Below are positions 14,358 to 45,904 of a stretch of 64,000 nucleotides of DNA, piece by piece. The notes under the pieces are model-generated. The model searched no databases and was not told the DNA's origin. It saw only the letters and a list, made by a program, of their open reading frames with translations. The stretch is from contig CABZEW010000003.1 of assembly GCA_902524845.1 (NCBI GenBank), positions 1 through 64,000 of the forward strand. The letters are read 5' to 3'. This DNA is from an uncultured Alphaproteobacteria bacterium (lineage in GTDB: Bacteria; Pseudomonadota; Alphaproteobacteria; Rhodobacterales; Rhodobacteraceae). A program made the position numbers and the translations under genes. Numbering within the stretch: position 1 is the stretch's first letter; each line of letters starts with the position of its first letter.

Positions 14358-15326
14358 TTACTTACTATCATAGTAACCAGCCCTAACCATAGCACCAATA
14401 AAATTACAAATAAGTCTCTCTGCATGAATCGCTGTGGTATTTCCTTTTTCAAAAGAAGGTGATATTTCCACTAAATCAAACCCTATAACCCTTCCTTTCT
14501 TCACTATTCCATGGACTAATTCCCTTATTTGCAACCAATTTAACCCACCAGGAGTAGGTGCATTAACTGCTGGCATTATTGTTGGATCCATGCCGTCAGC
14601 ATCAACTGTCATGTAAAAATTTACATCATCTGGTATTCTTTCAAGTATTGCTTTTATACCTAAATCGTGAACTTCATACGCACTAATGAGATTAGCTCCA
14701 TATGCATTTGCGTCATCATACTCTTGCTGCCTTCCGCTTCCTACACCCCTCAATCCAATTTGATATATAGAAGAGATTGATTTTAATTCGGAGGCTCTCT
14801 TTATTGGACTAGAATAACCTTCTTTTTCACCATTTACCTCATCTCTCCAATCCATGTGAGCATCTATTTGAATTAGGACGACAGGTTTATCATCAGGTAT
14901 TGCTCTCATTATTGGAATGGGTATCCCATGATCGCCGCCAATACAAATAAGTGTCGCACCCGAGTCAAAAATCTTTTTTGCTACCTTTTCAGCTCTTCTA
15001 TAATGTTCCCTTGGATCCCTAAAATCTGCTGTAACATTTCCGCAATCAACAATTTTAATGTTTTTATTATTTAACAATGGTCCTCCAAGATCCCAATCGA
15101 AATGTTTTAAGGTTCTTGGCTCATCCCAAGCAGCATCTTGAGCATTTTGTCTTAACATATCTGGTGCGATGCTTTGATCGTTAGATAATTCATTAGGATA
15201 ATATGGCAAACCATAAGGGACGCCTAAAATAACTATATCTGCGTCTAAATTATCTAAATCTAAATTTAAAGGAAACCCTAACAAGCCTCTTGAGTTTCCC
15301 TTCGGTAGTTCTGTCAAAGGCAGCAT
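14358..15326 (-). CDS. Ureohydrolase (arginase/agmatinase family), copy 1
   Basis: 322 aa; GGDHGIPIP, QIDAHMDWRD, VDADGMDPTIMPAVNAPTPGG metal-binding motifs. Confidence 0.9.
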   Translation of the reverse strand: MLPLTELPKGNSRGLLGFPLNLDLDNLDADIVILGVPYGLPYYPNELSNDQSIAPDMLRQNAQDAAWDEPRTLKHFDWDLGGPLLNNKNIKIVDCGNVTADFRDPREHYRRAEKVAKKIFDSGATLICIGGDHGIPIPIMRAIPDDKPVVLIQIDAHMDWRDEVNGEKEGYSSPIKRASELKSISSIYQIGLRGVGSGRQQEYDDANAYGANLISAYEVHDLGIKAILERIPDDVNFYMTVDADGMDPTIMPAVNAPTPGGLNWLQIRELVHGIVKKGRVIGFDLVEISPSFEKGNTTAIHAERLICNFIGAMVRAGYYDSK

Positions 15327-18654: not shown

Positions 18655-19439
18655 CCTCAAACTTCTTAGAAATTAAAGGGCTACACAAAAGATTTGGTAA
18701 CATTGCTGCTTTAAATAATGTCTCTCTAAATGTATCAAAGGGGGAAGTAATTTTTGTAATTGGGCCAAGCGGCTGCGGGAAAAGCACTCTTTTGCGAGCA
18801 GTTAATTGGCTAACGCCTCCAGATAAAGGTGAAGTATGGCTAGAAGGTGAGCTAGTAGGATCTTCCTCCTCTAAATTGACTATAAAGCAGTCCCAATTAT
18901 TGAATGGTTTCCGTGCTAGAATGGGAATGGTTTTTCAACAATTCAATGTTTGGCCTCATTTAAACGTATTAGAAAATGTGGTAAGAGCTCAATTGGTAGT
19001 AGCTAAAAGAAAGAGAGCTGATGCAGAGTCAACAGCTTTAAAGATTTTAGATCAAGTCGGCTTGCAAAACAAAATAGACGAATGGCCTGATCATCTTTCA
19101 GGGGGTCAAAAGCAAAGATTGGCTATAGCTAGAGCTTTGGCTATGGACCCTACATTAATGCTTCTCGACGAACCAACTTCTGCACTAGATCCTGAACTTA
19201 TAGGTGAGGTTTTGACGGTCTTAAAGCGGCTAGTAAATAACGGGATGACAATGTTAATAGTTACTCATGAATTAGGCTTTGCTTCCGAATTTGGTGATCG
19301 ATTACTATTTATGGATGGTGGTGAAGTAATCGAAGAAGGCCCCCCTAAAAAGATACTTACGATGCCTAAAACGAAGCGATTAAAAATGTTCTTAGAAAAA
19401 CTGGATGTTACTTCATTTAAAAAAGAGGAAAAATTATGA
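18651..19439 (+). CDS. Amino-acid ABC transporter ATP-binding protein
   Basis: 262 aa; GPSGCGKSTLLRAVNWL, LSGGQKQRLAIARALAMDPTLMLLDEPTSALDPE. Confidence 0.95.
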   Translation: MTSNFLEIKGLHKRFGNIAALNNVSLNVSKGEVIFVIGPSGCGKSTLLRAVNWLTPPDKGEVWLEGELVGSSSSKLTIKQSQLLNGFRARMGMVFQQFNVWPHLNVLENVVRAQLVVAKRKRADAESTALKILDQVGLQNKIDEWPDHLSGGQKQRLAIARALAMDPTLMLLDEPTSALDPELIGEVLTVLKRLVNNGMTMLIVTHELGFASEFGDRLLFMDGGEVIEEGPPKKILTMPKTKRLKMFLEKLDVTSFKKEEKL

Positions 19440-20392
19440 AAGAAAAACTTACAGCACCACCAAAAAAAGAGTTTCAAAGTTTTCACGATTTTCCGATCGT
19501 CACTGATTTAGATAATTTTGAAGCTGACATTGCATTTCTGGGCATACCTTTTGGAGATCCATATTCCATGGGCGAAGCTAGTAATGACCAAAGTACAGCT
19601 CCAACATATATAAGAAAATATTGTGAAAGAGCGTTACGGGGACTTGACAGATATGACTTTGATATCGGAGGGACCCTTTTAAATGGAGAAGATATTAAAG
19701 TTGTTGATTGCGGGGATGTTTTAGGAGAAGCAAAAGATGTGGCAGGAAATCATACTCGTTCTGAAAAGGCTGTGAGAAAAATTTTGTCTGCTGGAGCGCT
19801 GCCTATAATTTTAGGCGGTGATCATGCCATTCCTATTCCAGTTTTCAGGGCTTTGGAGGATCATGGGCCCATAACACTAATACAAGTAGATGCTCATATT
19901 GACTGGAGAGATGTTTTTCATGGTGTGCGCTTCGGTCTATCGAGTGTCATTAGAAGAGCTTCTGAAATGAATCATATTGACGAAATTTTTCAAATTGGTC
20001 TTCGATCGGCTGGTAGCGCTAGACCAGAGGAAACTCAAGCTGCTCTGGATTATGGCGCTAAATTAATTTCAGACATAGAACTTCAAGAGGTTGGAATGAA
20101 AGCTATTTTAGATCGAATTCCAGATGGACAAAATTATTACCTTACTATTGATGCTGATGGCGTTGACCCCACTATTATGCCTGCAGTTGCGGGGCCTGCC
20201 CCTGGGGGAGTAAGTTACTCTCAAATGAGAACGCTCATACAGGGACTGGTAAATAAGGGTAAGGTCTTGGGGATGGATATCGTAGAAATAACTCCAACGA
20301 AGGATATTAACGGGATTACGGCCATCACCGCTGGAAGATTTATATGCAATTTAATTGGTTCTGCTGTTCGAGCCGGTTATTTTAAAAAATAA
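19436..20392 (+). CDS. Ureohydrolase (arginase/agmatinase family), copy 2
   Basis: 318 aa; GGDHAIPIPV, QVDAHIDWRD, IDADGVDPTIMPAVAGPAPGG. Confidence 0.9.
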   Translation: MKEKLTAPPKKEFQSFHDFPIVTDLDNFEADIAFLGIPFGDPYSMGEASNDQSTAPTYIRKYCERALRGLDRYDFDIGGTLLNGEDIKVVDCGDVLGEAKDVAGNHTRSEKAVRKILSAGALPIILGGDHAIPIPVFRALEDHGPITLIQVDAHIDWRDVFHGVRFGLSSVIRRASEMNHIDEIFQIGLRSAGSARPEETQAALDYGAKLISDIELQEVGMKAILDRIPDGQNYYLTIDADGVDPTIMPAVAGPAPGGVSYSQMRTLIQGLVNKGKVLGMDIVEITPTKDINGITAITAGRFICNLIGSAVRAGYFKK

Positions 20393-43730: not shown

Positions 43731-44144
43731 TTAACTATACATTTGCGCAACAGCAGAAATAACTCCTCGTCTGTTCAAACTTTGATCGACTGACGAAGGC
43801 TCTAAGATCTTTTGCAAATAATCAACAGCAGTTTGCGGATTACAGTTTCCACACATAAAGACATCAATTGACGCAAAGTTACGTTCTGGCCATGTATGTA
43901 TACTGATATGACTTTCAGATAAAACAGTCACACCACTAACACCCATCCCCTCACCAAAAGGATGAAAATATGAATGTACAATGGAGGCGCCAGCCCTGAG
44001 CGCACTTTCTTCAATAGTCTTTTGAATAAAATCTAGATCGCCCATTCGCTCTACACCCCAAAAGTCAGCCAAAATATGACGTCCCGCAAACTGATCACCT
44101 GTCAAAGAACACATTGAGAAATAATCACTATCGAGATGGTTCAT
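43731..44144 (-). CDS. speD: S-adenosylmethionine decarboxylase proenzyme
   Basis: 137 aa; LSESHISIHTWPE..IDVFMCG canonical processing/catalytic motif. Confidence 0.9.
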   Translation of the reverse strand: MNHLDSDYFSMCSLTGDQFAGRHILADFWGVERMGDLDFIQKTIEESALRAGASIVHSYFHPFGEGMGVSGVTVLSESHISIHTWPERNFASIDVFMCGNCNPQTAVDYLQKILEPSSVDQSLNRRGVISAVAQMYS

Positions 44145-44145
44145 A

Positions 44146-45057
44146 TTATGCAGCCTCTTCTTTTTTATTTAATTTAGTATTAATGTCTTCTTCAATCCAT
44201 GGAGGAAGAATAAAAGATGCGCGATGCATTGCGGGACTGTAATGTTTAGTTCTAATGCATGCTTTTTTAAATCGTTGATCTATTTGTTCTAAATTTGGTA
44301 GCGACCAGGCCCTGTTTAGGGCTCCGAAGCCAAAGGTCATATAACCTCCATAATAGGTTGGAACTGCAGCAATATAGCAACTCGCATTCAGTCCCGCATC
44401 TTTTAGACAGCGCAGTGTGGTCCCAACTTCACCAGGTTGAAATTGAGGAACGCCTCCCTGCGTCGAGATCAAAGCATTTTCGTTAAGAATTTTAACAATA
44501 TTTTTATAAAATTCATGGCTGAATAGCTTTTCGCCTGGTCCTATTGGGTCAGTAGAGTCAATGATAACCGCATCAAATTTTAACTCTGTTTCTTGGACAT
44601 ATGCAAAAGCATCACCAACAATTAGCTGTACTCTTGAATCTTTGTAAACTTTACCAGCGTTATTTACACTTGGCATATGCTCTACACAGGCATCAACCAC
44701 ATGCTGATCAATTTCTACCATGACAACTCTTTTTACGCCTTTATGACAGAGAACCTCACGCAAAATCCCGCCATCGCCACCACCAACAATAAGGACATTT
44801 TCTGGGTTTTCATGAGAGAAAAGAGGCACGTGCACCATCATCTCTTGATAAACAAACTCATCACACTCTGTGATCTGAATAATCCCATCAAGGGTCAACA
44901 CGCGACCAAGTGAGTCATTTTCGTAAATTGCAATATCTTGATATTGGCTTTTACCCTCAAATAAAGTTCTACTTATCTCAAACCCCTGAAATGCCTTGCT
45001 GCCCTTAGAAGTGTAAATACTGTGAACATCTTCTATGAAATTAGGCCGCCCGTACAT
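44146..45057 (-). CDS. speE: Spermidine synthase (polyamine aminopropyltransferase)
   Basis: 303 aa; LTLDGIIQITECDEFVYQEMMVHVPLFSHENPENVLIVGGGDGGILREVL. Confidence 0.95.
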   Translation of the reverse strand: MYGRPNFIEDVHSIYTSKGSKAFQGFEISRTLFEGKSQYQDIAIYENDSLGRVLTLDGIIQITECDEFVYQEMMVHVPLFSHENPENVLIVGGGDGGILREVLCHKGVKRVVMVEIDQHVVDACVEHMPSVNNAGKVYKDSRVQLIVGDAFAYVQETELKFDAVIIDSTDPIGPGEKLFSHEFYKNIVKILNENALISTQGGVPQFQPGEVGTTLRCLKDAGLNASCYIAAVPTYYGGYMTFGFGALNRAWSLPNLEQIDQRFKKACIRTKHYSPAMHRASFILPPWIEEDINTKLNKKEEAA

Positions 45058-45493
45058 CTTGAACCTCCTCAGTAAAATTCCTTACGCCATCTTTATCTTC
45101 CTTATGGAACCCACGGTCCATATTGTGCATATTGGCCTTGGCAGGACTGAAATATTTTTTACAAACCCCAAGAGCCACCTCAACATCGAAAGCTTTACAG
45201 GAGAAAACATCTATATATACCTGTCCTATATTTTCTGCAAAATGAGCAGCAATATTTGAAGTTTCAATCATCTGAAGTAAAGTATAGCCCGCTGCTTCAT
45301 AGGAGTGCGATGCAAAATGCTCAACTATAGGCTCACCATAGGCTATCATATCAATAGCTTCTACAAGCTCTTTACTCCAATTCAGGATGTTTTCTTTATC
45401 AGTCAGTAGCTTTTTAGGACAACCATTAAAGTCTAACACTAAATGCTGACCCCATGGAGCTCGAATCGGCTTAGTTTGATTCTGTGACGTCAT
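45041..45493 (-). CDS. Divergent SpeD-family (AdoMetDC-like) pyruvoyl decarboxylase paralog
   Basis: 150 aa; GQHLVLDFNGCPKKLL...IETSNIAAHFAENIGQVYIDVFSCKAFD aligns to SpeD S-H-I-S-I-H-T-W-P-E region with substitutions. Confidence 0.75.
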   Translation of the reverse strand: MTSQNQTKPIRAPWGQHLVLDFNGCPKKLLTDKENILNWSKELVEAIDMIAYGEPIVEHFASHSYEAAGYTLLQMIETSNIAAHFAENIGQVYIDVFSCKAFDVEVALGVCKKYFSPAKANMHNMDRGFHKEDKDGVRNFTEEVQDVRAA

Positions 45494-45600: not shown

Positions 45601-45904
45601 CACAACGTTGATTAATAACGCAAACCTTCTAAAAACCAGGCGGATGGGACTTTATGGTTTCTAGCATGAAACAAAGCCCGTACCGAATTAAAAACATTTA
45701 CGCCGTTGCATAACCATTATCTGAATTTTCAGGGGCTAGAGACACGTGCGCAAGCGCATGTATACAAAATTTGAAAAAAAAAGAAATAAAAAAATGCTTC
45801 TGATTTTAATTACGGAATAAAACCACAAGCATTGACCCACATTAATATTAGTTCGAGAATATACATAATATAGTTTAAGTAGGAATCAGAAGAGTTCCCT
45901 TGTG

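Follow-up and report, generated by a model that had tools for sequence, protein, structure and literature searches.

A divergent SpeD paralog in a compact alphaproteobacterial polyamine operon is a predicted pyruvoyl-dependent ornithine decarboxylase behind a leader RNA resembling ar45/speF

Introduction

Why would an operon for spermidine synthesis carry two SpeD-family proteins? In the window analyzed here (the whole stretch of DNA, 64,000 nucleotides), a spermidine synthase gene (speE) lies between a canonical speD and a second, divergent speD-like gene. An earlier note on this DNA proposed that the paralog is a neofunctionalised, SpeD-derived decarboxylase that feeds SpeE with either putrescine or agmatine. 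Our results support the ornithine/putrescine version of this proposal and speak against the agmatine version. We conclude, with a probability of roughly 0.93, that the paralog is SpeDC, a predicted pyruvoyl enzyme that would cleave itself at Ser79 and decarboxylate L-ornithine to putrescine. Gene anatomy, residues, clade, genomic context and selection were computed in this study, while the ornithine specificity of the clade is taken from the literature; from these we infer the activity. The protein is a further member of a known, recently described family.

Results

A speDC-speE-speD operon

The three genes are encoded on the minus strand in the order speDC-speE-speD and form an overlapping operon (Table 1). 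speE begins inside the 3′ end of speDC, so that the two genes share 17 bp, and a single base separates speE from speD. The coordinates, order and motifs that the earlier note gave for these genes were all correct on re-check. Canonical SpeD matches Pfam AdoMet_dc (3.7e-32) and scores 120 bits with the AdoMetDC equivalog TIGR03330, above its cut-off of 75.65, and SpeE passes both NF002010 (320 bits, cut-off 260) and TIGR00417 (287 bits, cut-off 249.6). In the mechanism that we propose, the class 1b SpeD fold of the paralog would self-cleave at Ser79 to generate a pyruvoyl group, and the resulting enzyme would decarboxylate L-ornithine to putrescine, feeding SpeE. The operon's SpeD would provide decarboxylated AdoMet as the aminopropyl source, and SpeE would transfer the aminopropyl group onto putrescine, yielding spermidine. 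With these three roles, the pathway from ornithine and AdoMet to spermidine would be complete without a PLP-dependent ornithine or arginine decarboxylase (ODC or ADC).

Table 1. Positions of the features discussed in the text (window coordinates unless a locus is named)
Feature	Position	Strand	Remarks
speD-like paralog (speDC)	45041-45493	-	150 aa; predicted pyruvoyl-dependent L-ornithine decarboxylase, AdoMetDC-derived
Ser79 codon	45257-45259	-	predicted cleavage and pyruvoyl residue; corresponds to T. maritima S63
His84 codon	45242-45244	-	corresponds to T. maritima H68
Cys99 codon	45197-45199	-	corresponds to T. maritima C83
Shine-Dalgarno-like GAGGAGG for speE	45064-45070		inside speDC 3′ end
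speE, spermidine synthase	44146-45057	-	303 aa; NF002010 and TIGR00417
speD, canonical class 1b AdoMet decarboxylase (SESHISIHTWPE)	43731-44144	-	137 aa; TIGR03330
Conserved 5′ leader RNA core (model R1)	45610-45758	-	covariance model, genus alignment
ar45-like hairpin of leader	45692-45758	-	followed by long bulged stem-loop
U-rich tract conserved in genus	45774-45796	-	tentative RNAalifold pairing with speDC ribosome-binding site
Arginase-family protein	14358-15326	-	flanks amino-acid ABC transporter
Arginase-family protein	19436-20392	+	flanks amino-acid ABC transporter
SpeDC-SpeE fusion gene (MAG)	L103:5965-7227		
SpeDC-SpeE fusion gene (MAG)	L106:5113-6507		

Residues, fold and selection of the paralog

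The paralog has the size of a class 1b enzyme and matches PF02675 (AdoMet_dc, 3.8e-21), but it falls below the TIGR03330 cut-off at 44 bits (75.65 required) and is only 23% identical to the SpeD of its own operon. Alignment and a motif scan place its Ser, His and Cys, on which self-processing and catalysis depend, at exact AdoMetDC spacing (S at 0, H at +5, C at +20). The Glu (-1), His (+1) and Trp-Pro-Glu (+7 to +9) conserved in AdoMetDC are all replaced, such that the paralog reads TSN and AEN where canonical SpeD has Glu-Ser-His and Trp-Pro-Glu. Its +1 residue is therefore Asn, and the AdoMetDC-specific Pro is also missing. The earlier reading of this motif was right that Ser and the second His can be aligned; one amendment is that the catalytic Cys99, which it did not mention, is kept as well. 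Gln, Thr, Phe and Tyr are described as diagnostic of SpeDC by Li et al. (2023, J Biol Chem 299:105005, PMC10407285). The same set occurs in the same order in the paralog, as Q74 (-5), T78 (-1), F85 (+6) and Y93 (+14), with the four positions assigned from the sequences of assayed relatives. When 158 SpeDC-type and 41 canonical sequences were compared, there was no mixing at -5, -1, +1 and +14; this separation is partly by construction because the retrieval patterns contained TS..H and FSC cores, favouring T-1 and parts of the Y/F positions, while Gln-5 was in no pattern.

An AlphaFold model of the paralog (pLDDT 88) suggests the AdoMetDC fold, matching the T. maritima enzyme (1vr7/1tlu) with a TM score of 0.87-0.89 normalised to the target. 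A single-protein phmmer search of the PDB returned mostly chance matches to scavenger receptors, whereas the family profile and the fold search led to AdoMetDC; no solved structure nearer than AdoMetDC was found by sequence search. Across genus members, the dN/dS of speDC is about 0.09-0.19, similar to that of speE, and its synonymous sites are near saturation (dS about 0.9-1.3). This ratio, together with an open and syntenic reading frame in 14 of 22 genus genomes, indicates that the paralog is a product of neither chance nor decay.

Phylogeny and closest relatives

In a tree of 111 proteins (136 columns, with weak inner forks), SpeDC-type sequences were separated from all canonical SpeDs (SH-aLRT 99), and the paralog fell inside the SpeDC clade. 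Proteins of Electrothrix, Anaerolinea thermophila and Atribacteria belong to the same clade, within which the paralog sits with Micavibrio UBA1672 and gammaproteobacterial relatives. The phylogenetic check suggested in the earlier note groups the paralog with assayed ornithine-specific enzymes, in a tree that held no assayed SpeDA. The paralog is 48% identical over 127 aa to a protein of Ca. Electrothrix aarhusensis (L121, MTKO01000131), 40% identical to the A. thermophila protein and 38% to an Atribacteria protein. Directly downstream of the L121 gene come two genes consistent with casdc and casdh, and the gene for the assayed, ornithine-specific Ca. Electrothrix SpeDC (RWX43081) is described as lying upstream of casdc/casdh (PMC10407285). 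Going by assembly and gene context and not by an accession match, we infer that the L121 protein corresponds to RWX43081. A point of caution is one phage protein that its authors assigned to the ODC clade although it is a genuine AdoMetDC (PMC9992855); at -1 and +1, however, its relative phiM12 carries Asp and His, respectively, which the paralog does not.

SpeD and SpeE of the genus also group with Micavibrio and gammaproteobacterial copies and not with relatives from the family, which suggests that the operon arrived horizontally as a unit. Among 121 sampled genera of the family, two PF02675 copies were found only in the window's genus.

Distribution in the genus and other sources of putrescine

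Both SpeD copies are present in 14 of the 22 genus genomes and neither is present in the remaining 8. Since these genomes are 58-91% complete, the 8 missing operons alone are within what incompleteness allows. In half of the operon-less genomes (G005, G010, G013 and G021), the flanking genes are joined on one contig without the operon, indicating that its absence at this site is real. An assembly artefact is thereby ruled out for these four of the eight. The operon appears to move and to be lost as a unit.

Canonical SpeA or SpeC, which the earlier note had proposed to look for, was found in none of the 22 genomes, nor was any other canonical ODC or ADC; with incomplete genomes one such absence says little, and 22 together carry more weight. 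The AR-fold PLP decarboxylase family PF02784 gave one match per genome in 20 of the 22. In the window's genome this sole PLP-decarboxylase match is LysA (453 bits), and the matches in the other genomes, nearly all of equal length, are presumed to be LysA as well. No match to the OKR-type family PF01276 exceeded the cut-off in the 22 genomes (58-91% complete), and agmatine deiminase was not found in any of them.

It had also been suggested that one of the window's two arginase-family proteins (module 2) could complete a route through agmatine. These proteins score 149.8 and 138.1 bits, below the agmatinase cut-off of 174.3 (TIGR01230). Close copies occur in operon-less genus genomes and are missing from most operon-bearing ones; because their distribution does not follow the operon, we rejected them as pathway partners. 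They probably act as ureohydrolases within a cluster for the uptake of guanidino compounds. An agmatinase-like protein encoded elsewhere in the genome, on contig G000:C10, passes TIGR01230, and its family is likewise present in operon-less genomes.

SpeDC-SpeE fusions

In two other alphaproteobacteria, L103 (JABDAM010000009) and L106 (DPZW01000050), a single in-frame gene encodes SpeDC followed by SpeE. The fusion proteins are 421 and about 412 aa long, with 71% mutual identity, and their SpeE domain falls in one clade with SpeEs that are linked to a stand-alone SpeDC. This genomic evidence suggests that SpeE uses what SpeDC makes, as would be the case for putrescine. The SpeD-SpeDC fusions of Desulfotignum and Omnitrophota (PMC10407285) likewise unite pathway enzymes in one chain; however, SpeDC of L103 and L106 is joined to SpeE and not to SpeD. 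Among the papers searched, none described a SpeDC-SpeE fusion, and we regard these proteins as candidate natural ornithine-to-spermidine enzymes. Both loci also carry a separate SpeD and a second, distant SpeE that lies outside that SpeE clade.

A conserved leader RNA upstream of speDC

Within the 410 bases that precede speDC lies a block that is near-invariant in the genus, despite the near saturation of speDC synonymous sites. The covariance model R1 found one copy in each operon genome (14 of 14) and a match upstream of speDC in Micavibrio; in G013, where the operon is missing from the site, a decayed copy scored 49 bits. Within the genus there is too little covariation to establish the whole leader structure. 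RNAalifold paired columns 132-144, which hold the U-rich tract, with columns 420-432, and the tract might therefore pair with the speDC ribosome-binding site. No leader was found upstream of gammaproteobacterial speDC operons, and plasmids, phages and viral contigs yielded no match. Copies outside the window include those at L094:5671-5810, L287:2238-2381 (minus strand), L306 and L308.

Outside the genus, a scan of about 368 genomes with R1 gave three matches, all weak. Those in G071 (1.4e-4) and G129 (0.007) are directly upstream of an ODC-type PLP decarboxylase. Both enzymes score below the LysA cut-off, and that of G129 is ~58% identical to proteins annotated as odc2 or type III PLP-dependent enzymes. 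The third match (G107) lies in front of a glutamine amidotransferase gene. An established leader of alphaproteobacterial ODC genes is the extended speF element (Corbino et al. 2005, PMC1273637). Its published speF/ar45 architecture is a stem with a variable insert on top, followed by a long bulged stem-loop of ~80 nt, and the speF element showed no in vitro binding to any of six tested pathway metabolites (PMC1273637). Similarly, the leader in the window consists of a hairpin (CGCACGUG...GCAACGRCG) with a variable insert and then a long bulged stem-loop, and it lies upstream of a predicted ODC. In contrast to ar45 (RF02347) and speF (RF00518), however, the gene behind it encodes a predicted ODC of the non-homologous pyruvoyl type and not a PLP enzyme, and a search of Rfam that included both families gave no match at the gathering score. 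Based on this resemblance and context, and given the Rfam result, we name it a divergent ar45/speF-type leader and not a member of RF00518 or RF02347.

Rfam ar45 and speF occur in tandem, both passing threshold, at 6 of 8 plasmid-borne alphaproteobacterial ODC loci. At the ODC loci of Ruegeria and Tritonibacter (Rhodobacterales), the hairpin is found directly upstream, with 12-13 bits under R1. A hairpin model, R2, for which one of the Ruegeria/Tritonibacter ODC loci was used in building, had 98.5% of cells paired and one two-sided change. Its best Thalassospira match coincides with an Rfam ar45 match, at only 14 bits.

A short frame, MVMQRR (ATG GTT ATG CAA CGR CG; ATGGTTATGCAACGGCG, ~45716-45700, minus strand), recurs in SpeDC leaders and in some ODC leaders. 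We considered both a leader peptide and RNA pairing only; in L082, L307 and L308 stop codons interrupt the frame, and RNA pairing depends on these very bases.

Discussion

The paralog could in principle be a SpeDA that makes agmatine from arginine, with a ureohydrolase (of module 2 or contig C10) then releasing putrescine or with SpeE aminopropylating agmatine itself. SpeDA shares its fold and pyruvoyl chemistry with the paralog, such enzymes exist, including in pelagiphage (PMC10407285, PMC9992855), and the agmatinase-like protein of the window's genome does pass its family model. However, SpeDA lacks the SpeDC residue set and usually clusters with speY plus speB or aguAB, whereas the paralog has all four diagnostic residues, with Asn at +1, and belongs to a clade that holds assayed ornithine-specific enzymes. 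Arginase-family genes are also found where the operon is absent, agmatine deiminase is missing from the genus genomes, and the leader resembles those of ODC genes. These observations argue against agmatine as the product and make a SpeDA activity highly unlikely.

If the paralog were instead another AdoMetDC, or a prozyme that lacks catalytic activity and partners the canonical SpeD, this would fit the shared AdoMetDC fold and the fact that the two SpeDs always occur together in the genus. Such a role is very improbable, however, given that the Ser/His/Cys triad is intact and yet Glu(-1), His(+1) and Trp-Pro-Glu are replaced, that homologs exist without nearby speD or speE (e.g., with casdc/casdh), and that no other putrescine source was found in the genus genomes. 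As the substrate specificity predicted for the paralog itself rests on its relatives, another amino acid such as lysine, giving cadaverine, could also be imagined. Assayed SpeDC proteins were all without lysine activity (PMC10407285), SpeE requires a diamine, and the fusions suggest that this is putrescine; we consider this possibility negligible. Taken together, the diagnostic residues, the clade, the lack of another ODC or ADC, the SpeE fusions and the apparently ODC-type leader agree on SpeDC with ornithine as its substrate.

The paralog shares with the published SpeDC (PMC10407285) the Ser/His/Cys residues, the four diagnostic residues, the clade, the clustering with speD and speE, and a genome without SpeA/SpeC. 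The assayed proteobacterial members are from delta-Proteobacteria, whereas the paralog is from marine Alphaproteobacteria, and the window's operon is set apart by its speDC-speE-speD order, the 17-bp speE overlap and the ODC-type leader. Our analysis would widen the range of SpeDC to include Alphaproteobacteria and Gammaproteobacteria, where it takes the form of a compact operon. It also suggests how streamlined alphaproteobacteria of the surface ocean can produce putrescine and spermidine without a PLP-dependent ODC or ADC.

Two observations go beyond the published work that we found: the SpeDC-SpeE fusions, and the presence of this leader in front of a non-homologous ODC. The leader probably adjusts operon expression to the polyamine or ornithine state. 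We lean slightly towards the view that the ar45/speF-type leader of a PLP ODC was kept or captured in front of the operon of a non-homologous pyruvoyl ODC. If so, the leader RNA follows the reaction (putrescine supply) and not the enzyme family, and what it senses could be tested in a minimal speDC-speE-speD operon. The leader would also tie an orphan regulatory RNA to a second, unrelated ODC, which suggests that what is regulated is ODC activity or polyamine state.

Other SpeDC-type proteins were observed along the way. They include proteins from Chlamydiota MAGs (L126, L127, L131 and L132) and, at L056 and L057 (G323 and G294), a lone speDC that adjoins a hemB-like gene, with no speE or speD in the stretch examined. 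SpeDC-like proteins at L060-L063 (G140, G246, G336 and G244) have Ala at +6 and Asn at +16 and are possibly another SpeD-derived subfamily; their neighbours, named by eye only, look like ATP-grasp proteins of the glutathionylspermidine-synthase type.
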